Origin: Deltaproteobacteria bacterium
Lineage (GTDB): Bacteria > SZUA-79 > Acidulodesulfobacterales > Acidulodesulfobacteraceae
Assembly (NCBI GenBank): GCA_023489335.1
Contig: JAMDCP010000002.1
Location: forward strand, 124,001 to 188,000
Reading direction: 5' to 3'
Length of the DNA: 64,000 nucleotides
The translations under genes were made by a program, and so were the position numbers. Of this stretch, positions 5,877 through 61,071 are shown piece by piece (within the stretch, counting starts at the first letter, position 1; every line of letters begins with the position of its first letter). A model generated the notes under the pieces. The model did no database searches. It was not told the origin of the DNA and worked only from the letters and a program-made list of their open reading frames with translations.

Positions 5877-6230
5877 TTGAATCCTTTTTTGCCTATCCTT
5901 ATAATGCTTGTAATAGCCATATTATTTGCCGTTTTTACAATTATAGCCTCAACTTTTCTTGGAAAAAAAACATACGAAATCGGAAAATTAAAACCTTATG
6001 AGTGCGGGGTTGAACCGACAGGCGATGCCCAATTCAGATTCGATGTTAAATTTTATCTTGTTGCCATTTTTTTTCTTCTTTTTGATATCGAAGCACTTTT
6101 TTTATTCCCCTGGGCTGTTGTTTTTTCGGAACTGGGGCTTTTCGGATTTATAGAAATGTTTATGTTTATCGTGATATTAGTCATAGGTCTTTTGTATGTA
6201 TGGAAAAAGGGGGCGCTTAGATGGGAATAG
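5877..6230 (+). CDS. nuoA: NADH-quinone oxidoreductase subunit A
   Basis: Small membrane subunit of complex I that helps form the quinone cavity at the junction between arms. It has three transmembrane segments and the conserved [19 protein letters not shown] loop containing the cysteine of the deactive/active loop region. The 117-residue length is typical. The start is TTG preceded by AGGGAG. It is the first gene of a 13-gene operon; its last codons overlap nuoB by 10 bases. Confidence 0.95.
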
Positions 6231-6715
6231 AAGAACATCTGGGTGATAACATCATAACGACATCGTTAGATAAGCTTGTTTCATGGGGCAGAAAATGGTC
6301 GATTTGGCCTGCAACATTTGGTTTGGCCTGTTGTGCTATCGAAATGATGACGGCCGCATCTTCCCGGTATGATTTCGATAGATTAGGTTTAATTTTCAGG
6401 TCGAGTCCCAGGCAATCCGATTTAATTATCGTATCCGGAAGAGTTTCGTACAAAATGGCTCCCATGGTTAAAAGAATTTATGATCAAATGCCAAATCCAA
6501 AATGGGTTATTGCAATGGGTGATTGCGCCTGTTCGGGGGGGCTTTTTAATGTTTACAGCATAGTTCAGGGCATTGACAGAATTATTCCCGTCGATGTTTA
6601 TATCCCCGGTTGTCCGCCCAGGCCCGAAGCCCTTATACACGGTATAGTAAAACTTCAAGAAAAGATAGAAAAAGGGACTATAAAAAGCGGGGAACCGCCT
6701 AAGATTTTAAAGTAA
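6221..6715 (+). CDS. nuoB: NADH-quinone oxidoreductase subunit B (N2 cluster)
   Basis: Carries iron-sulfur cluster N2, the last electron carrier before quinone. The tandem cysteines ([11 protein letters not shown]) and the two further ligands in [12 protein letters not shown] and [12 protein letters not shown] are all present, so this is a functional PSST-type subunit. Length 164 fits the family. The ATG start overlaps the end of nuoA by 10 bases, indicating translational coupling. Confidence 0.96.
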
Positions 6716-6774
6716 AGTAAAGCCGGACTAAGTTTTTTAAATTATCTTAAAGATAATATAAATTTAATATAAAC

Positions 6775-7293
6775 ATGAGCCTTAAAGAGATGGATGTCTT
6801 ATTTGCGCTTAGCGTCGTAAAGGAATCTATGCCAAAATTAGTTTCTTCGGTTGAAACCTCTAATGGCGACATACATATATTCACCGGTAAAGAAAATATT
6901 ATAGATTTTGCAAAATTTTTAAAAGACGACTCCAGGCTGCAATTCGATATGTTATCCGACTTGTTTGCCGTTGACTACCCACAAAAGCCCGAAAGAATAG
7001 AAGTAATTTATAATTTTTATTCTACAAAGAATAATTTCAGAATATTTGTGAAGGTTAGAAGCAAAATAGACGAACCCGATTACCCCAGTTTAACACCGCT
7101 TTACAATTCGGCAAATTGGTTTGAAAGGGAGGTTTACGATATGTTTGGGTTAAAATTTAAGGGGCATCCCGATTTAAAAAGAATATTAAATCCCGATGAC
7201 TGGGAAGGGCATCCTCTCCTTAAAGATTACCCGTTAAGGCAAAGGCCGCCGGTCGAAACGATAAATTTTGATACCCCCGGATATGTTGAATGA
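6775..7293 (+). CDS. nuoC: NADH-quinone oxidoreductase subunit C (30 kDa)
   Basis: Peripheral-arm structural subunit. The family signature near the C-terminus (WFEREVYDMFGLKFKGHPDL followed by RILNPDDWEGHPLLKDYPL) is intact. At 172 residues it is a stand-alone NuoC, not the NuoCD fusion of enterobacteria. It lies 59 bases after nuoB with no strong Shine-Dalgarno sequence, like several genes in this operon. Confidence 0.95.
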   Translation: MSLKEMDVLFALSVVKESMPKLVSSVETSNGDIHIFTGKENIIDFAKFLKDDSRLQFDMLSDLFAVDYPQKPERIEVIYNFYSTKNNFRIFVKVRSKIDEPDYPSLTPLYNSANWFEREVYDMFGLKFKGHPDLKRILNPDDWEGHPLLKDYPLRQRPPVETINFDTPGYVE

Positions 7294-7360
7294 ATATGTT
7301 GAATTAGATGAAATAACCCAAAAACTATAAATCATCAAATTATTAATAAGAAATTTAACA

Positions 7361-8560
7361 ATGTTTGAATACAAAGATTTCTTAATAGAGGCAGATAAAT
7401 TTCCATTGAATGTGGGTCCCTCGCACCCTGCTACACACGGCGTTCTCAGAGTTTTGGTTCAATTAGACGGGGAGGTTGTAGTCGATGCAGAACCTATAAT
7501 AGGTTATTTGCACACAAGTATGGAAAAATATGCCGAATTCCGAACTTATCACCAGGCTGAGACTATTACGGATAGAATGGACTATGTTTCCGCCGCCTCA
7601 AATAATTTAGGTTATATACTTGCCGTCGAAAAGCTTTGCGGCGTCAAAGCCCCTAAAAGAGCGGAATATGTCAGGGTTATCCTTGCAGAGTTCACAAGAA
7701 TCAGTTCCCATCTTGTATGGCTGGGTACGCACGCTGTCGATATCGGCGCTTTAACCGAGTTTTTATACTGTTTTCGCGAAAGAGAGTTAATACTGGATAT
7801 TATAGAAACTATTACGGGCGCCAGGATGACCCCTTCTTTTTATCGGGTCGGCGGCATAGCTTTGGATATACACAAAGATTTTATAGATAAAACGAGGAAT
7901 TTTATAAAAATTTTTCCCGAAAAGGTCAGCGAGTATGAAGCATTACTCACAAAGAACAAAATTTGGCTGGAAAGAACCAAAAATTTAGGTATAATTTCCG
8001 CAGAAGATGCGGTTAATTTTGCATTGACAGGACCTTCCCTTAGAGGCAGCGGATTAAAATATGATGTCAGGAAGGCAAATCCTTATTCAAGCTATGAAGA
8101 TTTTGATTTTGAAATACCCATTGGAGATGCGGGAGATGTTTACGATAGATATTTAGTAAGAATCGAAGAGATGAGGCAAAGCCTTAGAATAATTGCTCAA
8201 GCCATAGAAAATATTCCGGAGGGCGACTATTTAAGCTATGACGAATACCCCCGCTATGTCATTCCTCCTAAAAAAAGGGCGCTAACCACAATGGAAGGTA
8301 TGATATCACTTTTTAAATACGGTATGGAGGGCATAAAGCCGCCAAAGGGCGAGGCATACTGCTCCGTGGAAAATCCGAGAGGGGAATTGGGTTTTTATTT
8401 GGTATCCGACGGTTCGGCCTTTCCTTATCGCATGCGGGTGAGGCCGCCGTCGTTTTGCAATATCAGCGCTTTATGTAAAATGACGAAGGGGCATTTATTA
8501 GCCGACCTGGTTGCAATTATGGGCAGCGTGGATATATTGCTGGGAGAAGTGGACAGGTAA
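7361..8560 (+). CDS. nuoD: NADH-quinone oxidoreductase subunit D (49 kDa)
   Basis: Forms the quinone-binding site with NuoB. The N-terminal NVGPSHPATHGVLR motif, with the quinone-site histidine, and the C-terminal MGSVDILLGEVDR ending are both present; the 399-residue length is normal. Related to the large subunit of NiFe hydrogenases, but it lacks their CxxC nickel ligands, as expected for complex I. The next gene, 31 bases downstream, is not nuoE as it would usually be. Confidence 0.96.
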   Translation: MFEYKDFLIEADKFPLNVGPSHPATHGVLRVLVQLDGEVVVDAEPIIGYLHTSMEKYAEFRTYHQAETITDRMDYVSAASNNLGYILAVEKLCGVKAPKRAEYVRVILAEFTRISSHLVWLGTHAVDIGALTEFLYCFRERELILDIIETITGARMTPSFYRVGGIALDIHKDFIDKTRNFIKIFPEKVSEYEALLTKNKIWLERTKNLGIISAEDAVNFALTGPSLRGSGLKYDVRKANPYSSYEDFDFEIPIGDAGDVYDRYLVRIEEMRQSLRIIAQAIENIPEGDYLSYDEYPRYVIPPKKRALTTMEGMISLFKYGMEGIKPPKGEAYCSVENPRGELGFYLVSDGSAFPYRMRVRPPSFCNISALCKMTKGHLLADLVAIMGSVDILLGEVDR

Positions 8561-8591
8561 AGGATAAAATTATAAATTAAATTCAGGTTAT

Positions 8592-10496
8592 ATGAAAATC
8601 ATAGATAAAATCGGTTCAAAATTAGATATTTCATTCTTTAAAAGAACGGGCCATACCGAAATATCTTCCATACTTAATTGGAACGGCGTAGTTTTGCTTG
8701 ACGATAAAGATAATAAAGTTGACCTGGCAAGATGCTATATGAATGAGCTTCAAAAGGTTTCTTGCGGCGTTTGCACTCCGTGCATGGTTGGAACTTCGGT
8801 TGCTTCCGATATCCTGGAACATATATGCAACGGCCGCGCTATTTTAGAAGATTTGGATAGGTTAAGAAACCAGTGCGAATGGATTTTATCGTCTTCTAAG
8901 TGTACGGTGGGAACTATAGGGCCGTTGGCCGTTACCGAACTAATCGATAATTTCAGGGAAGATTTTGAAAACGCAATAATAAATAAAGAAATTATACCGA
9001 AAGGAGATTATATAACCAAGGTAACAGCTCCTTGCATTAATGGCTGCCCATCCAAACTCGATATTCCAAACTGGATCGAAAGAGTCAGGGACGGCAGATT
9101 TGAGGATGCGCTTCAATCTGCCAGGAGAAATACTCCGTTAGCAGGAATTTTAGGAAGAACTTGCTTTCATCCGTGCCAGAATAATTGCCGCAGGGCTAAT
9201 GTCGATGAGCCCATTCAGATATGTTTGATCAGAAGATTTGCAGCCGATAACGAATTTTATTCCGATATTAAGCCCGAGTTTGCAATCAAAGACAATGGAA
9301 TCAAGGTAGCAATCGTAGGTTCGGGCCCCGCAGGTTTAAGCTGCGCATATTATTTGCGTTTAATGGGTTATAAGCCCGTGATATTCGAAGCATTGCCTGT
9401 TTTGGGAGGGATGATGAATGTCGGTATCCCAAAGTACAGATTGCCGCAAGAATTCCTGGATAAAGAATTAGGTTATATCCTTTCCACCGGAATTGACTAC
9501 AAATTAAATCAAAGACTTGGAACCGATTTCAGGATACAGGATCTTTTTGAGCAGGGTTTTAAAGCTGTTTTCCTTGCGGTTGGCGCCCATAAAGGGCAAA
9601 ATATAGGGTTGCCCGGAGAGCAAGACAATCTTAAAGGTTTTTATGAAGGGGTTAAATTTTTAAGGGATGTCTCTCTCGGCAATAAAATTGAACCAGGTAA
9701 GAAGGTTATCATAGAAGGGGGCGGCAATGTAGCTATAGATTGTTGCAGGACTGCTATCAGGTTAGGATTCAAAGAAGTTATCGTTGTGTATAGAAGAGGG
9801 AGAGAGCAGATGCCTGCAGCGCCTTACGAAATCGATACAGCCATTAAAGAAGGCGTTAAATTCGAGTTTTTGACCAACCCTATAAGTATTATTCAAGAAA
9901 ACGGAGCCGTTAAAGGCGTAAAGTGCAGAAAAATGAAACTCGGAGACCCGGATGAAAGCGGCAGAAGAAGCCCTGTGGAAGTTTCCGGTTCCGATTTTGA
10001 CATAGAATGCGATTCATTTATTATGGCAGTCGGACAGGTCCCCGATTTTGATTTTTTAAAAGATACGCCGCAGATTAAAACGGATAAAGGCAAAAAAATA
10101 ATAGCGGACGAGTTTACGCATATGACCGATATGCCGGGGGTATTTGCCGGCGGCGATGCATTTACGGGACCCATTAGCATAGTCGATTCAAACCGCGACG
10201 GTAAAAATGCCGCAAGAAGAATAGACCAGTATATAAGAACGGGTTCATTCGAAGCGACGGACGATTGCCTTTTTGAATATCTATTAGAAAAAATCGGCGT
10301 TTATGACAAAAAAGAGATAATAGATTATGCCGATTTTCCAAAAGGAAATCCCGCAGCTAAACAGGTGGAAGAAGATGTTGAAATGCGCATAAGTAATTTT
10401 ATGGAAGTTGACAAGGGCTTAACCAGCGATGATGTTATTTATGAAGCCACAAGGTGCATGAGGTGTTATTTTCTTATGCTTGTAAAGTTTAAATAA
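8592..10496 (+). CDS. NuoF C-terminal iron-sulfur domain fused to GltD-like FAD/NAD(P)H oxidoreductase
   Basis: A 634-residue fusion occupying the position of nuoE-nuoF. Residues about 50-125 match only the C-terminal part of NuoF: N3-cluster ligands C58, C61, C64 (SCGVCTPC) and C104. The NADH- and FMN-binding part of NuoF is absent. Residues about 140-625 resemble glutamate synthase small subunit: iron-sulfur ligands C148, C152, C191, C195, C199, an FAD motif VAIVGSGPAGLS at 239-250 and a second nucleotide motif GGGNVA at 376-381 followed by YRR at 400-402, a pattern usually linked to NADPH. A late RCMRC pair sits near the end. I infer that it replaces the NADH dehydrogenase module of this complex I with an NAD(P)H- or other-donor entry. 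It could alternatively be a soluble partner. Confidence 0.88.
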   Translation: MKIIDKIGSKLDISFFKRTGHTEISSILNWNGVVLLDDKDNKVDLARCYMNELQKVSCGVCTPCMVGTSVASDILEHICNGRAILEDLDRLRNQCEWILSSSKCTVGTIGPLAVTELIDNFREDFENAIINKEIIPKGDYITKVTAPCINGCPSKLDIPNWIERVRDGRFEDALQSARRNTPLAGILGRTCFHPCQNNCRRANVDEPIQICLIRRFAADNEFYSDIKPEFAIKDNGIKVAIVGSGPAGLSCAYYLRLMGYKPVIFEALPVLGGMMNVGIPKYRLPQEFLDKELGYILSTGIDYKLNQRLGTDFRIQDLFEQGFKAVFLAVGAHKGQNIGLPGEQDNLKGFYEGVKFLRDVSLGNKIEPGKKVIIEGGGNVAIDCCRTAIRLGFKEVIVVYRRGREQMPAAPYEIDTAIKEGVKFEFLTNPISIIQENGAVKGVKCRKMKLGDPDESGRRSPVEVSGSDFDIECDSFIMAVGQVPDFDFLKDTPQIKTDKGKKIIADEFTHMTDMPGVFAGGDAFTGPISIVDSNRDGKNAARRIDQYIRTGSFEATDDCLFEYLLEKIGVYDKKEIIDYADFPKGNPAAKQVEEDVEMRISNFMEVDKGLTSDDVIYEATRCMRCYFLMLVKFK

Positions 10497-10601
10497 AATT
10501 TTAAAAAGCCTCATAAAAAGGTTAGATTCAAGATATACGGCACAAAAGAAGGGTTTATTTTAAAAGTTATATATTCGCACATGTTTACAGGATTAAATTA
10601 A

Positions 10602-12728
10602 ATGGATATAGAAATTACGATAAACGGCAAAAAAATAATGACTAAATCAGGCCTTACGATTCTCGAGGCCGCCGCTCAAAATGGCATAAAAATACCCACG
10701 CTTTGCTATCTTAGAAGGCTCAGGCCTATCGGCTCCTGCAGAATTTGCGTAGTCGAGGTTAAAGGAGTTAAAAATCCTCTCCCGTCCTGCGTTGCAAAAA
10801 TAAAAGAAGGGTATGAAATCTCAACCGATACCGAAAAACTATGGAAGGTAAGAAAAGAAGTGCTGTCGCATCTTCTACTGGACCATCCTCTCGATTGTCC
10901 CGTTTGCGATAAATCAGGCGAATGCAGTTTGCAGGATTTATCATTTGAATTTGGCATCACAACCCAGAAAAACGAAAAGATTTTTCCCGATAGAACGCAT
11001 ATATTTAAAAGCGATCTTATCGAATATACTGCGACGAGGTGCGTGCTATGCTCAAGATGCATTAGGGTATGCACCGATATGTACGGGAATCCATTTTATC
11101 AAATTAAAGATAAAGGATATAATGGTTACATCGGTTTAAAACAAGACGATAAACTGGAAATGGGCGCAATTCCAGCCGAGAACTGCGGATTTATGGAAAT
11201 TAAGCGGGAGGTAAATTATTTAGATTGCTATTATTGCGGGAATTGCGTGGAAGTCTGTCCTGTCGGCGCATTAATTTCAAAACCTTCTAAATTCAAAGAA
11301 AGATACTGGCAGGTATCGCCATTTTCATCCGTATGCGATAAATGTTCCGCCGCATGCAGGATTGAGTACTATAGGTACGATAAAGAAGAATCTTTGGTCA
11401 GAACGGCTTCTTTATTCGGCGGATACTTGTGCCGTTCCGGTTTTTTTTACGAGGGTATCGGAAAATCGGACGGTTATTATATTCAAGCCCCCCTTATTAA
11501 AAAGAAATCTATGCCGAGAGAAACCGATCTCGAAGAAGCAATAAATGAATTTGTCTTAAGAATTAAAAATATTTCCGGAAAAAATGGCATGGAAAATACC
11601 GCAGTTTTAGTATCCCCAACTATTTCCACAAATGACGGGTTCGTAATTTCTAATTTTGTAAAATATATTTTAAAGCCCGCCTATTTTGATATAGCCGAAC
11701 CCGAACTTTACAGGGAGAACTTCAATAAATTTAAAACTATTTTTAGAAACGAGGAAAACTTCGAGATTAAAGCCATACAAAATTCCAATGTTATATTATA
11801 TATCGGTTCTATAGAGGATGAAATTCCGTATGTGTCGTATAACATTATGAAAACACACAGGGAACATGGGGGGAAACTTTTACTTGTAAATATTAAAAAA
11901 CAGATAAATCCCGTTTTAACAAGATTTGAGGATATTGCGCATATCAGGGAGGATATCGAGTTATCCGGAATCCATGATTTTTTGAATAGCCTGAGATTAA
12001 AACTTTACGATTACGACTTTAAAAAAGATAATGAAATGGGCGACTGGCTGAGCAGGGTAGCCAAAAATATTCTTAAATCAAATTCGGTTTCCATTATAAT
12101 CGGCGATCTTCCAATGTCGGCTTATAATATGGGTAAAGACTTTCTTGCTATCAAAGAAATTGTCGAATTTTTAAGGGATGAACAGAAAGCCGTATATGTT
12201 TATCCTCTTATGAAGCCTTTTAATTATAGGGGGCTTGAAAGTGCAGGGGTAAACCCCTCCAATCTTTTAGGTTTTAATTCTATATATCCCGGATTTGATG
12301 CGGGAAAAATAAAAAATCTCATTTATATAGGCGATCCTATAAATAATTACATAACTAAAGAATTGACTAAATATATAACGGATTTAGAGTTTTTGGCCGT
12401 TTTTTCTTCTAAAGCGAGCATATTATCCGCTATGGCGGATGTTGTCATACCGATATACGATTTTCTTGAATCAAAAGACGCGTCCTATGAAAATTTCGAG
12501 GGTAAAAAGATACACTTGAATAACGAATTCGATTTGGGCGCATATAGAAGCGATATTTTAGATCTTTTAACCTTAGTTTCGAGCAAATTAGGATATTCGT
12601 TTAATTATATAAAGGATGAATTGTCCGGGTTTGTTAAATCATTAAAATTAGGGAATGCAACATATTACAATAAGATTAAAACTAAAAGTAAATTTTATTA
12701 TAACGATAAAACTAAGTTATATTATTAA
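10602..12728 (+). CDS. nuoG: NADH-quinone oxidoreductase subunit G
   Basis: Iron-sulfur subunit of the peripheral arm, 708 residues. The N-terminus holds a [2Fe-2S] ferredoxin fold (CYLRRLRPIGSCRICVVEV with a further Cys), then the His/Cys-ligated cluster (HLLLDHPLDCPVCDKSGEC), then two [4Fe-4S] motifs (CVLCSRCIRVC and CYYCGNCVEVCPVGAL) and a CDKCSAAC motif. The rest is a weakly conserved molybdopterin-oxidoreductase-like domain without obvious cofactor residues, as is normal for NuoG. It follows the unusual NuoF-GltD fusion by 105 bases and would receive its electrons. Confidence 0.94.
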   Translation: MDIEITINGKKIMTKSGLTILEAAAQNGIKIPTLCYLRRLRPIGSCRICVVEVKGVKNPLPSCVAKIKEGYEISTDTEKLWKVRKEVLSHLLLDHPLDCPVCDKSGECSLQDLSFEFGITTQKNEKIFPDRTHIFKSDLIEYTATRCVLCSRCIRVCTDMYGNPFYQIKDKGYNGYIGLKQDDKLEMGAIPAENCGFMEIKREVNYLDCYYCGNCVEVCPVGALISKPSKFKERYWQVSPFSSVCDKCSAACRIEYYRYDKEESLVRTASLFGGYLCRSGFFYEGIGKSDGYYIQAPLIKKKSMPRETDLEEAINEFVLRIKNISGKNGMENTAVLVSPTISTNDGFVISNFVKYILKPAYFDIAEPELYRENFNKFKTIFRNEENFEIKAIQNSNVILYIGSIEDEIPYVSYNIMKTHREHGGKLLLVNIKKQINPVLTRFEDIAHIREDIELSGIHDFLNSLRLKLYDYDFKKDNEMGDWLSRVAKNILKSNSVSIIIGDLPMSAYNMGKDFLAIKEIVEFLRDEQKAVYVYPLMKPFNYRGLESAGVNPSNLLGFNSIYPGFDAGKIKNLIYIGDPINNYITKELTKYITDLEFLAVFSSKASILSAMADVVIPIYDFLESKDASYENFEGKKIHLNNEFDLGAYRSDILDLLTLVSSKLGYSFNYIKDELSGFVKSLKLGNATYYNKIKTKSKFYYNDKTKLYY

Positions 12729-12802
12729 TTAATTAAAAATAGCCGTTGTGGTATTATGTGAATAGTATAACAATGCTAAACTTATTTTAATAAGCAAAGA
12801 TT

Positions 12803-13789
12803 ATGATATTTTGGCTCATAGCAGAGATTATAAAAATATTAATCGTTTTCGCGGGTTTGCTTATGGCGGCGGCTTATCTTACCCTTCTGGAGCGTAAAGT
12901 GGCTGCAAAAATCCAAAACAGGATGGGGCCTATGGAAGCAGGATTTCATGGGTTATTGCAGCCGATAGCGGACGGAATAAAACTCTTTTTTAAGGAGGAT
13001 ATTATACCCGCGGATGCCGATGGGATTTTGTTTATCCTGGCCCCTATAATAGCAGTTATTCCTGCGCTGACCACATTTGCGGTTATACCGTTCGGCGCGC
13101 CGGTTAAGATTCTGGGGCATACCGTTCCGCTTCAGATTACGGATGTAAATATCGGAATACTTTTCATTTTAGCATTGTCATCGCTCGGGATTTACGGGGT
13201 AGTTTTGGGGGGATGGGCTTCCAATAGCAAATATTCACTGCTTGGAGGAATACGTACGGCGGCCCAAATGATTAGCTATGAGATTCCCCTTGTCCTTTCG
13301 ATTATCGGAGTAATAATGATTGCGGGAGATTTGAGTTTATCTAAAATAGTTTCCGAGCAGTCGCATATCTGGTTTATAGTTTACCAGCCTGTAGGCTTTA
13401 TGATTTATTTAATTGCTTCAACGGCTGAAATGAACAGGGTTCCTTTCGATTTAGGGGAGGCGGAGGGAGAGCTTGTCGCCGGGTTTCACACGGAATATTC
13501 AAGCATGAAGTTTGCGTTCTATTTTATCGGCGAGTATGCTCAAATAGTAGTTAATAGCGCGGTAATAGTTACTTTATTTTTAGGAGGATGGCAGGGTCCC
13601 TTACTTCCTTCGGTTTTATGGTTTTTAATAAAAGTTTTTTTTGTCGTACTTATTTATTTATGGTTAAGATGGACATATCCAAGGTTAAGGTATGACGAAC
13701 TCATGGATTTCGGATGGAAGTTTTTATTGCCGTTGGCATTAGCCAACATTATAGTTACAGGTTTTATAATGATTTTAATAAACAAATAA
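12803..13789 (+). CDS. nuoH: NADH-quinone oxidoreductase subunit H
   Basis: Membrane subunit (ND1) that lines the quinone channel. About eight transmembrane helices. The conserved loops LERKVAAKIQNRMGP near the N-terminus and AEMNRVPFDLGEAEGELVAG in the middle, with acidic residues linked to proton coupling, are intact. Length 328 is typical. Start ATG, 74 bases after nuoG. Confidence 0.96.
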   Translation: MIFWLIAEIIKILIVFAGLLMAAAYLTLLERKVAAKIQNRMGPMEAGFHGLLQPIADGIKLFFKEDIIPADADGILFILAPIIAVIPALTTFAVIPFGAPVKILGHTVPLQITDVNIGILFILALSSLGIYGVVLGGWASNSKYSLLGGIRTAAQMISYEIPLVLSIIGVIMIAGDLSLSKIVSEQSHIWFIVYQPVGFMIYLIASTAEMNRVPFDLGEAEGELVAGFHTEYSSMKFAFYFIGEYAQIVVNSAVIVTLFLGGWQGPLLPSVLWFLIKVFFVVLIYLWLRWTYPRLRYDELMDFGWKFLLPLALANIIVTGFIMILINK

Positions 13790-13807
13790 AATAATTAATA
13801 AAATAAT

Positions 13808-14323
13808 ATGAATACTAAGAAACAGGAAAATTCTATTATAGAAATTTCCAAAAATTTATTGGTTGGGTTAAAGACTACGATAAAGACCTTTTTCAATAAA
13901 CCCGTAACCTTTCAATATCCGAGGGAAAGGCTCGAAATAGCCGAAAGATTCAGAGCCTTTCCCAAACTTAATGTGAATAAAGACGGGTCGCTAAAGTGCG
14001 TTGCATGTTTTTTATGCCAGACCGTATGCCCGTCCGAGGCCATTAAAATAAAATCAGGGTATATCGATTACGGCGACGATCATGAGCTTACGGAGAGGCA
14101 GAAGAATAACCATAGCTTGGACAAACTTGCGCATAATACATTTAATGACGGAAGAAGGCATCCGTCGTCTTTTGATATAGATTTATTAAGATGTATCTGC
14201 TGCGGCTATTGCGAAGAGATTTGCCCCGAAGAAGCGATAAGCATGGGAAGTAATTATGAAGTGGCTTTTTATACGCGGGATGAAGGAATTTACGGTATAG
14301 AAAAGTTAATAGAATCCAGATAA
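13808..14323 (+). CDS. nuoI: NADH-quinone oxidoreductase subunit I (2x[4Fe-4S])
   Basis: Ferredoxin-like subunit carrying clusters N6a and N6b that pass electrons from NuoG to NuoB. Two CxxCxxCxxxCP motifs are visible: CVACFLCQTVCPSEAI and CICCGYCEEICPEEAI. Length 171 matches the family. Placed 18 bases after nuoH. Confidence 0.96.
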   Translation: MNTKKQENSIIEISKNLLVGLKTTIKTFFNKPVTFQYPRERLEIAERFRAFPKLNVNKDGSLKCVACFLCQTVCPSEAIKIKSGYIDYGDDHELTERQKNNHSLDKLAHNTFNDGRRHPSSFDIDLLRCICCGYCEEICPEEAISMGSNYEVAFYTRDEGIYGIEKLIESR

Positions 14324-14351
14324 ATATTAATAATTTATTAAGAGGATAATT

Positions 14352-14855
14352 TTGGAAGCGCTTTTTTATGTTTTTTCAATTATAGCTGTTTTTTCGGCGT
14401 TAATGGTTATATCGATGAAAAACCCTTTAACCTCCGCCTTATATTTAGTGCTTTGCTTTTTTGCTCTTGCCGGTTTTTATGTCCTGCTCGATATGCAGTT
14501 TCTTGCGGCCATGCAAATCCTTGTTTACGCCGGAGCTATTATGGTATTGGTTGTTTTAATTATCATGCTGCTCAATCTTTCAAAAATAAAAAAAATCAAA
14601 ATGGATTTGCATCAGGTTTTCATAGCCATGGTAATTTTTATAATTTTATTGGTAGAAATAACTATTTATATTCTTAACGGTTCCCTAAAAAAACCAACGG
14701 GTATTTATACTCACGCTTTAATTAATAAAATTGGAAATACGCAGATATTAGGCGAATTTTTATTTACAAAGTATATATTTCCGTTCGAAGTTGCATCAGT
14801 TTTTTTATTGGTCGCTATAATCGGCGCTTATCTGTTTGCCAAAAAGAAATATTAA
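14352..14855 (+). CDS. nuoJ: NADH-quinone oxidoreductase subunit J
   Basis: ND6-type membrane subunit with five hydrophobic helices; the conserved AMQILVYAGAIMVLVVLIIM segment (TM3, with the pi-bulge) is present. Length 167. The start is TTG, preceded by AGAGGA at a suitable distance. Confidence 0.94.
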   Translation: MEALFYVFSIIAVFSALMVISMKNPLTSALYLVLCFFALAGFYVLLDMQFLAAMQILVYAGAIMVLVVLIIMLLNLSKIKKIKMDLHQVFIAMVIFIILLVEITIYILNGSLKKPTGIYTHALINKIGNTQILGEFLFTKYIFPFEVASVFLLVAIIGAYLFAKKKY

Positions 14856-14895
14856 TTGGATTAATCAAATTAAATAATTTTAATTTATAATAAAA

Positions 14896-15195
14896 ATGTC
14901 GATAAACGGTTATTTAATAGTTGCGGGAATAATTTTTTGCATTGGAATGCTCGGCGTTTTAATGCGCAAAAACTTAATAGTAATATTTATGAGTTTGGAG
15001 TTAATGTTTAACGCCGCCAATCTGGGATTCGTTGCCGTTTCAAACTACCTTAATCTTATAGACGGAGATATTTTCGTTATTTTTGTAATGGTCGTGGCTG
15101 CCGCCGAAGCCGCAATAGCCCTCGGCATCGCCGTTGCATTTTATAGGGAAAAGGGAACGGTAGATATAGATAAGGCTCAGGAGTTAAAATTATAG
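14896..15195 (+). CDS. nuoK: NADH-quinone oxidoreductase subunit K
   Basis: ND4L-type subunit of 99 residues with three transmembrane helices. Both conserved membrane glutamates are visible, in SLELMFNAANL and AAAEAAIALGI. It sits between nuoJ and nuoL as in most complex I operons. Confidence 0.95.
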   Translation: MSINGYLIVAGIIFCIGMLGVLMRKNLIVIFMSLELMFNAANLGFVAVSNYLNLIDGDIFVIFVMVVAAAEAAIALGIAVAFYREKGTVDIDKAQELKL

Positions 15196-15235
15196 CCGCA
15201 TTAAATTAAACATAAAAGCATAAAAGGATATTTTG

Positions 15236-17119
15236 ATGGATGCAAAATTTATAATTACATGGCTTATACCGTTATTTCCCTTTGCGGGTTGGTTTCTCTG
15301 GGGATTATTTGGAAAATATTTCAAGGGGTATTCCGGTTATATAGCAAGTTCATTTGTGGTAATATCCTTTATCCTTTCTTCCATTTTGTTTTTTATCGTT
15401 TCATATACGCATGGGTTTACGACTACTCTTTATCCGTGGATTCATGCGGCAAACTTTAAGGCAGGGGTATCTGCCGTAATAGATAGGCTTTCCGTCGTGA
15501 TGCTTGTTATGGTTACGGGAGTAAGCGCCCTCGTGCATATATATTCGATAGGATATATGCAGGATGATAAAGGTTTTGCGAGATATTTTTCGTTCTTAAA
15601 TCTTTTTGTTTTCTCTATGATAATGCTCGTAATTTCCAATAACCTTTTACTTTTATATGTGTTCTGGGAAGCAGTCGGGTTTTGTTCGTATATCTTGATA
15701 GGGTTCTGGTATGAGAAGAAATCCGCTTCCGATGCTGGGAAAAAAGCCTTTATAGTTAATAGAGTGGGGGATTTTGGGTTTGCGATCGGCATTTTTTTGT
15801 TATTTATCACCACGGGAACCCTTAATTATGAAACCATATTTAAAATGATCCCGTCTATTCCGTCTATTACCGTTACGATTATCGCTTTACTGCTATTCGC
15901 TGGAGCCGTCGGAAAATCGGCGCAATTCCCTCTGCATGTGTGGCTGCCTGACGCCATGGAGGGCCCCACCCCGGTCAGCGCATTAATTCATGCGGCTACC
16001 ATGGTTACTGCCGGCGTTTATATGATTGCAAGATTTCACGTAATCTTTTCATATTCGCAATTTGCATCCGAAGTTGTTTTAACGATTGGGACATTTACCG
16101 CCTTTTTGGCTGCATTTATAGCTTTAACGCAGTTCGACATTAAAAGAATTATCGCATATTCGACCATAAGCCAATTGGGATATATGTTTATGGCTGTGGG
16201 CATTGGTTCTTATACGGCGGGGATATTTCATCTTATCTCGCACGCTGTTTTTAAAGGATTGCTATTTTTAACCGCTGGCAGTGTAATGCATGGACTTGCG
16301 GGCGAATTAGACTTAAGAAAGATGGGCGGGCTGTATTCAAAGATGAGAACCACCGCAATTACATTTATCGTGGGCGGACTTGCGTTATCCGGAATACCTC
16401 CCTTTTCAGGATTTTTTAGCAAAGACGCCATATTGGCAGATGTTTATAATAAGGGTTTTTATTTTGCATGGGTAATTGGAGAAATTACCGCTTTAATGAC
16501 CGCTTTTTATATTTTTAGGTTAATATTCGTGGCTTTTTTTGGAGAATCTAATCTAGACCCGGAGGTGCATGTCCATGAATCTCCGAAAATTATGACGATC
16601 CCCATGATAATACTGGCATCGCTTGCTTTAATAATCGGGTTTCTGGGTATTCCTCCATTTAATAATTCCATATTTTATAGTTTTTTACATGTTGACTTCA
16701 AAAACGCATATAACTTTGCCCCATTCGTAAACAGTACTCCGTGGTACATTTTGAGCCTCATATCTGTTTTGGCCGGGCTTATTGGAATATGCACAGCCTA
16801 TCTTTTATACATTAAAAAGGTTGTGAACCCTGAAACGGTTAAAAATATTTTTAAGCCGATATACGCGTTATCCTACAACAAGGTTTATATCGATGAGATA
16901 TATAATTTTATAATTGTCAAGCCGGTTCTTGGCTTTTCCAATTTTTTATGGAAGGTTATAGATATTTCGATTATTGACGGAGCCGTTAACGGCATTGCAT
17001 CGGGTTTTGCATTTTTTGGCGTTAAAGCAAAAAGAATCCAAAACGGGATGTTAATGAGTTATATTTTAACTCTGACTATCGGTGTTGCCGCACTGCTTTT
17101 TTATTTTTTTATCAGGTGA
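15236..17119 (+). CDS. nuoL: NADH-quinone oxidoreductase subunit L (antiporter-like)
   Basis: Largest antiporter-like subunit, with about 16 transmembrane segments and the long lateral helix at the C-terminus. The key glutamate (YVFWEAVGFCSYILIGFWY), the lysine region (GKSAQFPLHVWLPDAMEGPT) and HAATMVTAGVYM are conserved. About 627 residues. A TTG lies directly before the ATG; I prefer ATG because AAAGGA sits at normal spacing from it. Confidence 0.95.
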   Translation: MDAKFIITWLIPLFPFAGWFLWGLFGKYFKGYSGYIASSFVVISFILSSILFFIVSYTHGFTTTLYPWIHAANFKAGVSAVIDRLSVVMLVMVTGVSALVHIYSIGYMQDDKGFARYFSFLNLFVFSMIMLVISNNLLLLYVFWEAVGFCSYILIGFWYEKKSASDAGKKAFIVNRVGDFGFAIGIFLLFITTGTLNYETIFKMIPSIPSITVTIIALLLFAGAVGKSAQFPLHVWLPDAMEGPTPVSALIHAATMVTAGVYMIARFHVIFSYSQFASEVVLTIGTFTAFLAAFIALTQFDIKRIIAYSTISQLGYMFMAVGIGSYTAGIFHLISHAVFKGLLFLTAGSVMHGLAGELDLRKMGGLYSKMRTTAITFIVGGLALSGIPPFSGFFSKDAILADVYNKGFYFAWVIGEITALMTAFYIFRLIFVAFFGESNLDPEVHVHESPKIMTIPMIILASLALIIGFLGIPPFNNSIFYSFLHVDFKNAYNFAPFVNSTPWYILSLISVLAGLIGICTAYLLYIKKVVNPETVKNIFKPIYALSYNKVYIDEIYNFIIVKPVLGFSNFLWKVIDISIIDGAVNGIASGFAFFGVKAKRIQNGMLMSYILTLTIGVAALLFYFFIR

Positions 17120-17181
17120 TTTAAGCATATATTAATTTAATTTAGTTTAATTTAATAAGGGGTTTAAGAAGGTTGGCGAAT

Positions 17182-18723
17182 ATGGATTTCTTTATAAAAT
17201 ATCTTTTGTCTATATTGATTTTTTTTCCATTAGCTTCGGTTGTTTTATTACTTTTCATTAATAAAAAAAATGAAGGGTTATTAAGAAATCTTGCCTCAAT
17301 TTTATCTCTTGTAGAATTTATCTTTTCGGTTTATCTTTTTGTTTATTTTAAACCGGATACATATAAGTTTCAATTTGTCGAAAAATTAAACTGGATAAGC
17401 ACATTCGGCGCATCATATTTTTTGGGAATAGACGGCGTAAGCCTATTTTTAATTCTATTAACGACCCTTTTAACATTTGTCTCCCTCATTTCAAGTTACA
17501 GGTATATAAAGGACCATATAAAGGAATTTGTTATATTAATGTTAACGCTTGAAACATTTATGATTGGAACATTTGCGTCGTTAGATGTTCTTTTATTTTA
17601 TTTATTTTGGGAATTTATGCTGATTCCTATGTATTTTATCATCGGAATGTGGGGAACGGGCAGAAGGGTGTATTCGGCCGTTAAATTTGTTCTCTACACA
17701 TTGTCGGGGTCGCTTATAATGCTATTCGGATTGATTTATATATTTATACTTCATTACGATCAGACTGGAAATTTTACATTTAATATCTTGAGATTATATA
17801 ATACCCATATACCTATTAATCTTCAAATACTGCTGTTTATTGCCTTATTTTTGGGTTTTGCGATTAAGATACCCGTTTTTCCATTTCACACATGGCTTCC
17901 GGATGCCCATACCGAAGCCCCCACGGCAGGCAGTGTTATACTTGCCGGCGTTCTTTTAAAATTCGGGGTTTACGGATTTTTCAGGTTTGCGATGCCTCTT
18001 TTGCCCGCTGCGACTTTAATGCTTGCGCCGCTCGTTATTATTATCGGAGTTATAGGGGTTCTATACGGGGCTTTAGTTTCCATGGTTCAAAAGGATTTAA
18101 AAAGATTGGTGGCATTTTCAAGCGTTTCGCATATGGGTTTTATAATGCTGGGTTTGTTTGCAATGTCCGCGATTAGCGTAGATGGTTCGATACTTCAACT
18201 TTTAAACCATGGAATCACAACCGGGGCGCTATTTCTTTTTGTAGGAATGCTTTACGAGAGGGCGCATACGAGACAAATTGCGGATTTTGGCGGTATTGCA
18301 AAAAAAGCCCCGATACTTACAACGCTTTTTATGATTTCCGTTTTGGCGTCCATCGGACTACCCGGTTTAAACGGTTTTGTGGGGGAATTTTTAATATTAA
18401 TCGGGTCTTTTAATCATTACATGCTTTTAACGATAATTGCGACAAGCGGAATAATTTTTGCAGCGGTTTACTTGTTATGGATGTTTCAGAGGGTTATGTT
18501 TCAAGGCATCACAAATCCTCAAATAGAAAGTTTTCAGGACATGGATTTAAGGGAAATTATCACTGTTTTACCGTTAATATTACTGATGTTTCTTATAGGA
18601 TTTTATCCCGCGCCGTTTTTAGAAAGAATTGATCCTACGGTGGTGCATTTTCTCAGTATGATAAGCCGTCACGGATACGTTCACAATTTAATTAAATTAA
18701 AGATGGGGTTGTCCAATGCTTGA
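17182..18723 (+). CDS. nuoM: NADH-quinone oxidoreductase subunit M (antiporter-like)
   Basis: Antiporter-like proton-pumping subunit with about 14 helices. Conserved parts include FYLFWEFMLIPMYFIIGMWG (membrane Glu), IKIPVFPFHTWLPDAHTEAP (membrane Lys/His) and KRLVAFSSVSHMGF. About 513 residues from ATG 17182. A TTG nine bases upstream (17173) is open in frame but directly abuts the purine-rich AAGAAGG, so ATG is better placed. The 3-prime end overlaps nuoN by 8 bases. Confidence 0.94.
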   Translation: MDFFIKYLLSILIFFPLASVVLLLFINKKNEGLLRNLASILSLVEFIFSVYLFVYFKPDTYKFQFVEKLNWISTFGASYFLGIDGVSLFLILLTTLLTFVSLISSYRYIKDHIKEFVILMLTLETFMIGTFASLDVLLFYLFWEFMLIPMYFIIGMWGTGRRVYSAVKFVLYTLSGSLIMLFGLIYIFILHYDQTGNFTFNILRLYNTHIPINLQILLFIALFLGFAIKIPVFPFHTWLPDAHTEAPTAGSVILAGVLLKFGVYGFFRFAMPLLPAATLMLAPLVIIIGVIGVLYGALVSMVQKDLKRLVAFSSVSHMGFIMLGLFAMSAISVDGSILQLLNHGITTGALFLFVGMLYERAHTRQIADFGGIAKKAPILTTLFMISVLASIGLPGLNGFVGEFLILIGSFNHYMLLTIIATSGIIFAAVYLLWMFQRVMFQGITNPQIESFQDMDLREIITVLPLILLMFLIGFYPAPFLERIDPTVVHFLSMISRHGYVHNLIKLKMGLSNA

Positions 18724-20296
18724 TATATCGCAAGTATATAATATTAATTTTTTGGAAGAAGGTATGCTAAGCGTAATACCTGAGGCTATTGTTATAATTT
18801 TTGCCTTTATAGTTCTTTTTCTTACTTTTTTTGAAAAACTTTCAAAAAGCGATAATCCATATTATCTCTCCCTTATAAGCATTGGTTTTTCCATGCTTTA
18901 TATTCTAATGTTGTCGGGGAGGACAATAGACGGTTTTTACGGTTCTATTGTTTTCAACAGGTTTTCCGTTTTTTTATTTATCGGCATCCTTTTTTCGGGT
19001 TTTTTAACTATCCTGATGTCAAAAAATTATATAGATAATTTCGAAGTGCCGCTTCCCGAATATTATAGCCTTATTCTATTCGGGGTAGCCTCGATGATGC
19101 TTTTGGTATCGTCGAATAATCTTATTATGGTGTTTTTGTCCATCGAATTTATGTCTATTACCGCGTATATTCTTACAGGCTATTTAAAGGGAAACTTAAG
19201 AAGCACCGAAGCCGCGTTAAAATATTTTGTGCTCGGGACTTTTGCATCCGCGTTTTTAATTTTCGGGTCGGTATTTATTTATGCCGCTACGGGTCATCTA
19301 AATTTATATAATATCCATTTTTTTATCGTTAATATTGCAAGCAAAGGATTGGTAAATTTTGGCGATATAAAGATTTACCTTGCTATAGGGCTGATTTTAT
19401 TCTTAGTGGGACTTGCATTTAAAATGTCGCTTTTTCCGTTTCATTCATGGACGCCGGATGCTTATGACGGAGCTCCCACGCCGGTTACCAATTTTATGGC
19501 AACAGGGGTTAAAATAGCGGCTTTCGCAATTTTTTTAAGAATATTTTCCCTCATTTATAATTTTAATATAATGGACTTTAATAATATATTATGGATGCTT
19601 GCTATACTTTCGATGTCATTTGGAAACATTGCGGCTCTTATGTCCTCAAATATTAAAAGGCTGCTGGCATATTCGTCTATAGCGCAGGCAGGCTATATAC
19701 TCGTTGGGATTATAGGCGGCGGATATTACGGATATTCCGGAACCCTTTTTTATTTATTGGCGTATGTTTTTATGACAGCGGGGGCGTTTGCGGTTGTCAT
19801 TATATTTGAAAATTTTGATTTAATGTCTTTAGACATTAAAAAATATTCGGGCATCGGATATAAATACCCTATTGTTGCAGCCGCCATGACATTTTTTCTT
19901 TTATCTTTGGCTGGAATCCCTGTCACTTCAGGCTTTATGGGAAAATTTTATGTGTTTTCCGCGGCAATTAAATCAAGATATAACCTGCTGGTCTTAATAG
20001 CCTTTATTAACAGTGCTTTTGCCGCATTTTACTACATAAAGATAATAGTACGGATGTACATGCCGGACAAGGAAGAATTAATTGCATCATTAAACGGTGT
20101 CCAGAGAGGCGGCATGTCCGGCGGATCCGACCAGGGTAAGCCTTCCGGCGATTTTGGCATTGTCAACGGTAAAATAAACGAAGAATTAATGATAGTAATT
20201 TTTATTTGCCTATTTTTCACATTGCTAATGGGCATTTATCCGCAATTATTTATAAATTTTGCGCATAATTCCATAAGTTCGTTATGGAACATCTAA
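18716..20296 (+). CDS. nuoN: NADH-quinone oxidoreductase subunit N (antiporter-like)
   Basis: Third antiporter-like subunit and last gene of the complex I operon. Conserved stretches include LSIEFMSITAYILTGYLKG, GLAFKMSLFPFHSWTPDAYDGAP and IKRLLAYSSIAQAGY. Length 526, slightly long because of a Gly/Ser-rich loop (RGGMSGGSDQGKPSGD) between the last helices. The start overlaps nuoM; the end overlaps ispE by 13 bases, so ispE is probably co-transcribed. Confidence 0.94.
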   Translation: MLDISQVYNINFLEEGMLSVIPEAIVIIFAFIVLFLTFFEKLSKSDNPYYLSLISIGFSMLYILMLSGRTIDGFYGSIVFNRFSVFLFIGILFSGFLTILMSKNYIDNFEVPLPEYYSLILFGVASMMLLVSSNNLIMVFLSIEFMSITAYILTGYLKGNLRSTEAALKYFVLGTFASAFLIFGSVFIYAATGHLNLYNIHFFIVNIASKGLVNFGDIKIYLAIGLILFLVGLAFKMSLFPFHSWTPDAYDGAPTPVTNFMATGVKIAAFAIFLRIFSLIYNFNIMDFNNILWMLAILSMSFGNIAALMSSNIKRLLAYSSIAQAGYILVGIIGGGYYGYSGTLFYLLAYVFMTAGAFAVVIIFENFDLMSLDIKKYSGIGYKYPIVAAAMTFFLLSLAGIPVTSGFMGKFYVFSAAIKSRYNLLVLIAFINSAFAAFYYIKIIVRMYMPDKEELIASLNGVQRGGMSGGSDQGKPSGDFGIVNGKINEELMIVIFICLFFTLLMGIYPQLFINFAHNSISSLWNI

Positions 20297-58400: not shown

Positions 58401-59597
58401 ATGGGTAAAAAACATGAAACTCCGCTTCTTGACGAACTAAAAAAGGGGAAGTGGATAAGTTTTGTTAAGGAAATGGAAAGGGCGGCCGAAAAGAGTGAAA
58501 GAACGGAAGACCTTTTGGGACAGGTTGAAGAATCTTACCGTGATAAAATTACCCACTGGAAACACGGAGGCATGGCAGGTGTTAAGGGATATGGCGCCGG
58601 AATGGTGGGAAGATTCTCGGAGTTTCCCGAAAAGTATCCGGGCGTTAAGGAATGCCACTCAATCAGGCTAAACCAGACATCCGGTTTTTTTTACAATTCC
58701 GATGTTCTGAGAAAATTAGCTGACATAGCAGACCAGCATGCCGGCGGACTCTTTAATTTTCACGGTTCAACGGGCGATATCCAGATATTAGGTCTTACAC
58801 AAGCCGATGCCGAAGATCTCTTTCAAAAAAGCGCGGAATTAGGATTCGACCTTGGCGGCAGCGGCTCGGATCTCCGTACCCCGTCCTGTTGTGTCGGACC
58901 TGCGAGATGCGAATTTGCAAATTATGACACGCTTCAGATATGCTATGACTTAACCCATGCTTTTCAGGATGAATTACACAGGCCGTCGTTCAATTATAAA
59001 TTTAAAATGAAATTTTCGGGATGCGCAAACGATTGCGTCGCGGCGGCATCAAGGTCGGATTTGGCATTTATCGGGACATGGCAGGATAATATAAAAATAA
59101 ATCAAAATGAAGTAAAAAATTACGTTAAAAAATTTAATGTTCAGAAATATGTATTGGATAAATGTCCGACAAAGTGCATGTGGTTCGAAGGAGAAAATCT
59201 TGTTATAGACGATTCGAACTGCGTAAAATGCATGCATTGCATAAACGAGATGCCCAGGGCTCTTAAATCGGGAGACCAGAAAGGTTTGTCGATTTTAATA
59301 GGCGCGAAAGCCCCGTTAGTTACTGGTCCGAGAATGGGCATGATGCTGATTCCTTTCTACGATGTGCATGAAGACAGCAAAAACGACTATGAATGGCTCA
59401 AAGGATTGATAAGCAATATGTGGGAATTCTGGGATGAATACGGTGTCAGCAGGGAAAGGATAGGCGAACTTATCGCAAGGGTCGGGCTTGTCACTTTCCT
59501 TGAAGGAATAGGGCTGGAGCCTACAATAGATATGGTCAAGGAACCCAGAAGCAATCCGTTTATAAAGTTTGAAGACGAAGAAGCAGGCGCAGAATAG
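58401..59597 (+). CDS. dsrA: Dissimilatory sulfite reductase alpha subunit
   Basis: Catalytic subunit of the alpha2beta2 siroheme sulfite reductase in the cytoplasm. Siroheme-[4Fe-4S] ligands are in SCCVGPARC (C164-x5-C170) and GCANDC (C208-x3-C212); a ferredoxin domain with NCVKCMHC follows. At 398 residues it is somewhat shorter than many DsrA proteins (about 420-440). A strong AAAGGAGG precedes ATG. First gene of dsrA-dsrB-dsrD-dsrL-dsrC-dsrM. Confidence 0.97.
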   Translation: MGKKHETPLLDELKKGKWISFVKEMERAAEKSERTEDLLGQVEESYRDKITHWKHGGMAGVKGYGAGMVGRFSEFPEKYPGVKECHSIRLNQTSGFFYNSDVLRKLADIADQHAGGLFNFHGSTGDIQILGLTQADAEDLFQKSAELGFDLGGSGSDLRTPSCCVGPARCEFANYDTLQICYDLTHAFQDELHRPSFNYKFKMKFSGCANDCVAAASRSDLAFIGTWQDNIKINQNEVKNYVKKFNVQKYVLDKCPTKCMWFEGENLVIDDSNCVKCMHCINEMPRALKSGDQKGLSILIGAKAPLVTGPRMGMMLIPFYDVHEDSKNDYEWLKGLISNMWEFWDEYGVSRERIGELIARVGLVTFLEGIGLEPTIDMVKEPRSNPFIKFEDEEAGAE

Positions 59598-59667
59598 CGG
59601 AACAATTATGCATTTTTTAATTTAATTTTATTAATTAAAGTTACCATATATAAATTTGGAGGTTTTT

Positions 59668-60753
59668 ATGCCGGAAGAGGTTAAAAAGAAAAGAATAACC
59701 GATGTGGGCCCTCATGATTATCATGACTATCTGTCCCCTATGATTAAAAAAAATTACGGCAAATGGGCATATCACGAGATATTAGATCCGGGTACTATGG
59801 TACATATCGCAGAAAATGGAGATAAGCTATATACGGTAAGAATGGGATCGCCGAGATTGGTTAGCAGCAGTTTTGTGCGGGATATATGCGATATGGCGGA
59901 TAAATATTGCGGAGGTTATTTAAGATTTACAACCAGAAATAATGTAGAATTTTTACTCGAAGACGAAAAAAATGTCGAACCGTTAAAAAAAGATCTTGAC
60001 AAATTAGGTTATAATGTCGGCGGCATCGGCAATATCGTTGCAAATATAGTTCATACCCAGGGCTGGGTTCACTGCCATACATCGGCAAGCGATGCGTCCG
60101 GCGTGGTAAAGTCGGTAATGGACGAACTATATGAATATTTTGTCGAAGAGAAGCTCCCTTCAAAAGTCAGAATAGCATTTGCATGTTGCTTAAATATGTG
60201 CGGGTCGGTTGCTTCGTCAGATATAGCTATACTGGGAACCCATAGAAAACCCCCGAAAATTAATCACGAAAGGCTTGTTAATCTTTGCGAAGTGCCCAGC
60301 ACTATTGCCGCATGTCCGACAAATTCTATAAGGCCGGAAATGGTCGGCGACAAGAAGTCGGTCAGGGTTAACGAGGAAACGTGCGTGTTTTGCGGGAGCT
60401 GTTATACCGTATGCCCTGCAATGCCGATAGCCGACGCCGAGAATGACGGACTTTCGATATGGGTAGGCGGAAAGGTTTCCAATGCAAGAACTAAACCCAC
60501 TTTTTCCAAGTTAGTCGTTCCTTTTATACCTAATGAGCCGCCAAGATGGGGTAAGGCAGTTCAGGCGGTAAAGACGATACTGGAAGCCTACAAAAAAGGA
60601 GCCGAGCCGGGTGAAAGAGTCATAGAATGGATAGAAAGAATCGGCTGGTCCAGGTTCTTTAAAATAACGGGATTTGAATTTACCAAATACCATGTCGATG
60701 ATTTCAGGCTTGCCGAAGCAACCATGAATTATTCGTCTCACGCAAGATTTTAA
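59668..60753 (+). CDS. dsrB: Dissimilatory sulfite reductase beta subunit
   Basis: Partner of DsrA, 361 residues. [12 protein letters not shown] and ACCLNMCGS hold the cluster ligands (C136, C174, C178), and the inserted ferredoxin domain has [17 protein letters not shown] start at ATG 59668, preceded by TTGGAGG; an in-frame TTG four codons upstream overlaps that site. Whether DsrAB is of the reductive or oxidative type needs a tree. Confidence 0.97.
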
Positions 60754-60776
60754 TATAAATTAAGAGGAAAAATATT

Positions 60777-61007
60777 ATGACCGATGAAACTAAAAAGAAG
60801 TTGGAAGATAAGATTATCGGACTTGTTAAGGAGTATGCGGGCAAAAAACGATTTAAGCCTATCGATATAGTAAAAGAGATGGAAAAAGAATTTGCCGCCG
60901 AGGGCGTGTCTAAGGAAGATATCAAGGGAGCCTTGAAAGAAATAATGGACGACGGCAAGTTGGTTTACGGATATGCTGGCGGAAGCTTCCTGGCTCTTCC
61001 CGAATAA
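60777..61007 (+). CDS. dsrD: DsrD, allosteric activator of DsrAB
   Basis: 76-residue winged-helix protein between dsrB and the DsrL-type gene. DsrD is known to activate DsrAB and is generally found in sulfite- and sulfate-reducing organisms. Typical features are the charged helix KLEDKIIGLVKEYAGKKRF and the wing DDGKLVYGYAGGSFLALP. AGAGG precedes ATG. Confidence 0.92.
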   Translation: MTDETKKKLEDKIIGLVKEYAGKKRFKPIDIVKEMEKEFAAEGVSKEDIKGALKEIMDDGKLVYGYAGGSFLALPE

Positions 61008-61071
61008 AATTAATAATATTTTATTAAAATTTTAAATCTTAAATATATTCTAGGATTAACGAGGATAAACT

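Follow-up and report, generated by a model that had tools for sequence, protein, structure and literature searches.

The window analysed here, a stretch of 64,000 nucleotides from a genome of Ca. Acidulodesulfobacteriota (Acidulodesulfobacterales; acid-loving sulfur bacteria that form a phylum without cultured members), carries a nuo operon at positions 5877–20296 with the gene order nuoABCD-[fusion]-GHIJKLMN. Both the Q module and the membrane arm of complex I are represented in full (NuoA, B, C, D, H, I and J–N), leaving just nuoE and nuoF missing; in their place sits a single reading frame, the product of which we refer to as NuoF-GltD (Table 1). Intergenic distances are 31 nt between nuoD and the fusion, too short for a remnant of NuoF to fit, and 105 nt between the fusion and nuoG.

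Table 1. Genes of the nuo operon, with their positions in the window and the evidence used for each assignment.
Feature	Position	Strand	Evidence
nuoA	5877..6230	+	Pfam
nuoB	6221..6715	+	Pfam, NCBIfam
nuoC	6775..7293	+	Pfam, NCBIfam
nuoD (the genome's only complex-I-type NuoD)	7361..8560	+	Pfam, NCBIfam, genome search
N3-GltD fusion (here named NuoF-GltD; 634 aa, ATG start)	8592..10496	+	ORF, Pfam, NCBIfam, alignment, AlphaFold model
nuoG (708 aa; presumed docking partner of the fusion)	10602..12728	+	Pfam, alignment
nuoH	12803..13789	+	Pfam, NCBIfam
nuoI	13808..14323	+	Pfam, NCBIfam
nuoJ	14352..14855	+	position, translation; blastp to distant homologues in nuo operons
nuoK	14896..15195	+	position, translation; blastp to distant homologues in nuo operons
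nuoL	15233..17119	+	position, translation; blastp to distant homologues in nuo operons
nuoM	17173..18723	+	position, translation; blastp to distant homologues in nuo operons
nuoN	18716..20296	+	position, translation; blastp to distant homologues in nuo operons

From its N-terminus onwards, the fusion comprises a NuoF-type N3 [4Fe-4S] domain and then a GltD/NfnB-type FAD and NADPH module, with three Pfam domains each scoring above cut-off: NADH_4Fe-4S (residues 44–127, 64.7 bits), Fer4_20 (145–222, 74.1 bits) and Pyr_redox_2, made up of two dinucleotide folds (238–528, 105.2 bits). The Pfam search returned no match to Complex1_51K anywhere in the 634 residues, and the NCBIfam model for NuoF is covered only over its final 108 positions (303–410). 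In a sequence search, residues 1–137 align with NuoF and HydB chains. A YRR motif at residues 400–402 is invariant in all 55 aligned fusions. These data bear out the original prediction of an operon complete save for nuoE and a true nuoF, in which a 634-residue NuoF(C-terminal)-GltD fusion keeps the N3 cysteines, lacks the FMN/NADH part of NuoF and adds a GltD-like FAD/NAD(P)H domain with a YRR motif.

The cysteines of the N3 domain (C58, C61, C64 and C104) and of Fer4_20 (C148, C152, C191, C195 and C199) are invariant across the same 55 sequences, save for the third N3 cysteine, C64, which is kept in 51. In four fusions from Nitrospinota (L077, L080, L081 and L082) this residue is replaced by glycine; N3 may be altered or lost in these proteins, which would be odd if the cluster were always essential. 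At the opposite end of the molecule, a C-terminal RCMRC motif holds C622 and C625, present in all 54 complete sequences and probably cluster ligands that complete the second [4Fe-4S] cluster. In classical GltD/NfnB proteins the RCxxC motif instead stands just to the N-terminal side of the CxxxCP motif; among the proteins compared, it was found N-terminally in four, C-terminally in 79 (by a strict pattern) and at both positions in none, an either/or placement that suggests C148, C199, C622 and C625 as the ligand set of the distal cluster. The strict C-terminal pattern is matched by 53 of 57 fusions, and the remaining four likewise end in RCMRC. Ligands for both [4Fe-4S] clusters of the GltD-like module are thus present, with RCxxC in its C-terminal version, and from these we infer the cluster geometry. 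K170 of StnC serves as fourth ligand to the FAD-proximal cluster, and a K170R mutant retains half of the activity (PMC10482914); by alignment, the equivalent residue of the fusion is R214, a position occupied by arginine in 25/25 family members and by lysine in 30/30 others.

An AlphaFold model of the fusion, built with a 41-sequence alignment (pLDDT 88.5, pTM 0.87), has NfnABC and StnC as its best structural matches (Z 39.6–41.3, rmsd 2.0–2.6 Å over 473–485 residues), followed by NfnB and GltD with Z-scores of about 28–32; a sequence search ranks the relatives in the same order. The superpositions on NfnABC/StnC run as far as model residues 629–634, and so take in the C-terminal RCMRC motif.

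The neighbouring NuoG is divergent, scoring under its NCBIfam cut-off. Ligands for N1b (C35, C46, C49, C63), N4 and N5 (H95, C99, C102, C108) are all present, with those for N7 lying within residues 245–277, a numbering that we take from comparison with known NuoG; the N1b, N5 and N7 ligands are conserved throughout the 50 NuoG sequences aligned. An eight-cysteine, two-cluster ferredoxin pattern (residues 147–157 and 209–219), kept in 49 of the 50, may give the protein one [4Fe-4S] cluster more than is found in Thermus NuoG.

Profile searches across all 1.8 Mb of the genome, which is 92% complete, returned no PF01512 (the FMN/NADH domain of NuoF), no PF01257 (NuoE), no PntB or PntAB and no second complex-I-type NuoD; two further PF00346 loci both fall inside group-4-hydrogenase-like operons. 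A standard nuoEF encoded elsewhere in this genome, which would speak against the original prediction, was thus sought with PF01512 and PF01257 and not found. It is possible that the pair was missed in a genome that is 92% complete, though PF01512 is missing too from several relatives with completeness values of 95–100%. The genome is also without StnA/StnB partners (NuoE-like and FMN-bearing NuoF-like, respectively), and no NfnA partner adjoins the fusion gene, its neighbours being nuoD and nuoG; an NfnA/NfnB-like pair is encoded elsewhere (L129) and could link the NADH, ferredoxin and NADPH pools. Beside complex I, the organism carries two group-4 hydrogenase-like / formate-hydrogenlyase-like membrane operons (L130 and L131; C11 and C8). 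Two sets of PF01512 proteins from other genomes were considered and rejected as a standard nuoEF: those of four sampled relatives are 547–758 aa long and stand beside NuoG/formate-dehydrogenase-like proteins of ~1000 aa, outside nuo operons, whilst 430–500-aa proteins sampled in other fusion carriers (L119–L124) match NuoF weakly (24–34%) and look RnfC-like by sequence.

Within the host family, the fusion was found in 28 of 30 sampled genomes at 70–95% identity and with open frames, ruling out an assembly error or pseudogene; the two in which it is missing have completeness values of 86% and 59%. When 84,980 genomes were scanned for N3-GltD proteins that lack the FMN domain, 54 loci emerged: 24 belong to family members and the other 30 come from beyond the family, at about 40% identity, in MAGs labelled as Nitrospinota, Nitrospirota/Nitrospirae, Desulfobacterota/Deltaproteobacteria, Spirochaetota/Spirochaetia, Abyssobacteria and Poribacteria. 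Homologous loci include those of Ca. Acididesulfobacter diazotrophicus AP1 and MAG SZUA-79, both Ca. Acidulodesulfobacteriota. In the phylum to which one carrier (G062) belongs, 18 of 24 genomes searched match the 41-sequence profile (E ≤ 1e-150), 16 of these matches being near full length, one a contig-edge fragment and one the GltD part only. The short fusions form a single clade (SH-aLRT 93), apart from both long NuoF-GltD fusions and GltD-only proteins; the tree shows no nesting of short and long forms, a topology that speaks neither for nor against an origin by truncation of a long fusion.

The order NADH_4Fe-4S, Fer4_20, Pyr_redox_2 recurs inside nuo operons: nuo genes adjoin the fusion in 50 of the 54 loci, and nuoG starts no more than 160 nt downstream in 49. 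Outside the family the fusion typically heads the operon (fusion-nuoG-nuoABCDHIJK-L). Three distant homologues from Desulfobacterota MAGs (L059, L078 and L079) are orphans with no nuo neighbours and, given this location, may serve other partners; the genome of L059 has a nuo-linked copy as well (L075). Could the fusion then be a soluble NADPH oxidoreductase that simply shares an operon with a complex I fed by ferredoxin at NuoG/NuoI? Forms of complex I without NuoEF do exist, in cyanobacteria and archaea, and a few homologues are, as noted, orphan genes. The fusion has, however, kept its N3 domain, the role of which is to bridge from the flavin to N1b of NuoG, and NuoG, its ligands intact, is still encoded and lies immediately next to the fusion in 49/54 loci; we see only a small chance that this alternative is correct.

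With regard to the electron donor, the YRR residues of T. maritima NfnB hold the 2′-phosphate, and DsrL-2 from Desulfurella amilsii, which also carries YRR, works with NADP(H), not NAD(H) (PMC7596348); in StnC, the corresponding module passes electrons from NADPH to a non-bifurcating FAD, through two [4Fe-4S] clusters and onward (PMC10482914). Taken together, these precedents make NADPH the most likely nucleotide partner of the fusion, the motif being a prediction of specificity, not proof. The same hybrid complex might use NADH physiologically, or both nucleotides, as YRR is not decisive: complex I in general uses NADH, and GltD-like modules include the NAD(H)-using DsrL-1 forms (PMC7596348). 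We regard this as rather unlikely, as YRR is invariant in 55/55 fusions whereas NAD(H)-preferring DsrL proteins are without it, and the DsrL of the window has YNK at this site, such that the organism's own GltD-like proteins differ here. That DsrL (61072–62784) follows dsrA and dsrB in a cluster at 58401–62784; its YNK in place of YRR corresponds to the published exception for Acidulodesulfobacterales, and it likewise has a C-terminal motif, RCMSC.

In our preferred reading, which we hold to be likely, the operon encodes a proton-pumping, reversible NADPH:quinone oxidoreductase that uses FAD, the NuoE and FMN-NuoF tip of complex I having been replaced by NuoF-GltD. Gene content, ligand conservation, fold and linkage are as observed above; the cofactors bound, the preference for NADPH, the assembly of the fusion with NuoG, proton pumping and direction are what we infer from them. 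The idea at the heart of the original prediction, that the NADH/FMN module has given way to an N3-GltD fusion that carries FAD and probably binds NADPH, finds support in the genome-wide absence of NuoE/NuoF, the conservation of the fusion, its linkage to nuoG, the invariant YRR and the superposition on StnC/NfnABC.

Following the presumed path of the electrons, the N-terminal N3 domain of NuoF-GltD would dock on NuoG in the manner of standard complex I, as homology and gene linkage suggest, whilst the StnC/NfnB-type C-terminal part would take hydride from NADPH to FAD. Single electrons would then pass from FAD to the proximal [4Fe-4S] cluster (C152, C191 and C195 plus R214), on to the distal cluster (C148, C199, C622 and C625) and so to N3; thence to N1b in NuoG, the usual chain and quinone, with the intact membrane arm translocating protons, driven by the flow of electrons from NADPH to quinone. 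Like complex I the enzyme should be reversible, and at high proton-motive force could produce NADPH from quinol. It may even work mainly in this reverse sense, with quinol and proton-motive force reducing NADP+ for biosynthesis during chemolithotrophic growth; this would be one form of the NADPH:quinone reading, with which its probability overlaps, and we entertain it as a lesser possibility. For Acidulodesulfobacterales, sulfide oxidation has been put forward alongside sulfate reduction (PMC6776010, PMC7596348), and in a genome without PntAB a source of NADPH driven by proton-motive force would be useful; against this, sequence cannot give direction and the NfnA/NfnB-like pair is another possible source of NADPH. 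Alternatively, the GltD-type clusters might exchange electrons with ferredoxin, or the fusion might bifurcate electrons between quinone and ferredoxin, given that the fold is that of NfnB, a bifurcating protein, and that the arginine equivalent to NfnB R201 / StnC R239 is kept (R283, 55/55). The operon, however, encodes no NfnA, StnAB or ferredoxin-domain partner, and in StnC, the nearest relative by structure, the equivalent FAD is non-bifurcating (PMC10482914); we consider such activity very improbable.

Returning to the NADPH:quinone reading, on balance we favour the view that these proteins define a distinct class of complex I, of single origin and present throughout one phylum and in parts of several others, in which an StnC/NfnB module has been grafted onto the N3 domain of NuoF and FAD substitutes for FMN; a dedicated NADPH:quinone proton pump or a proton-motive-force-driven NADP+ reductase. 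Were this true, complex I would here be wired directly to the NADPH pool through a different flavin, with bearing on how N-modules are assembled from exchangeable parts and on the NADPH supply of lithotrophs; with the input module swapped on an otherwise standard machine, the dependence of complex I on FMN and NADH can be directly asked. The nuo complex of Acidulodesulfobacterales was described by Tan et al. (2019) as complete except for nuoE, nuoF and nuoG (PMC6776010). In comparison, the window has a divergent nuoG, and the fusion, standing in for nuoE/F, offers an explanation for the published complex.

Relatives of complex I with other input devices are known. None of the open-licence papers searched describes a complex I of the N3-GltD type, and an earlier description elsewhere is possible. 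Replacement of NuoEF is already known from Campylobacterota, and we class the present system as a new variant within complex I. In Campylobacterota, NuoX/NuoY stand in for NuoE/F, with flavodoxin or ferredoxin coupling described (PMC6682613); in both systems other genes have taken the place of the NADH module within a nuo operon and the donor is altered, but by its description NuoXY is set apart from the large NADPH-type flavoprotein seen here, fused to an N3 domain. With canonical 14-subunit complex I our system shares NuoA, B, C, D, G, H, I, J, K, L, M and N plus the N3 domain, differing in that NuoE and the FMN/NADH part of NuoF are absent and a FAD/NADPH module is present instead.

The long NuoF-GltD fusions have the same N3-Fer4_20-Pyr_redox_2 order but keep the FMN domain, stand mostly beside NuoE and NuoG-like/hydrogenase-like subunits and occupy a separate branch of the tree. 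Eight of these (L110–L117; about 1020–1060 aa) have such subunits as neighbours and are candidates for soluble complexes that join FMN and FAD input; another, from an unrelated genome, lies upstream of nuoABCD (L023:1-6268) and is possibly part of a complex I with both flavins. NfnAB, GltD and DsrL are alike in having the GltD-like FAD/NAD(P)H module with two [4Fe-4S] clusters, but possess neither an N3 domain nor nuo linkage, and in classical GltD/NfnB the RCxxC is N-terminal. Closest of the solved relatives, at 36–42% identity and rmsd 2.0–2.6 Å, are the Stn/NfnABC transhydrogenases (StnC of Sporomusa ovata; NfnA of Caldicellulosiruptor and Thermococcus), which have in common with the fusion the FAD/NADPH module, the C-terminal RCxxC and the feeding of a NuoG-type chain. 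These are soluble, with an FMN-bearing NuoF-like subunit (StnB), where the fusion system has a membrane arm and no FMN subunit; and their GltD part is joined to a NuoG-like protein, that of the fusion to the N3 domain of NuoF.
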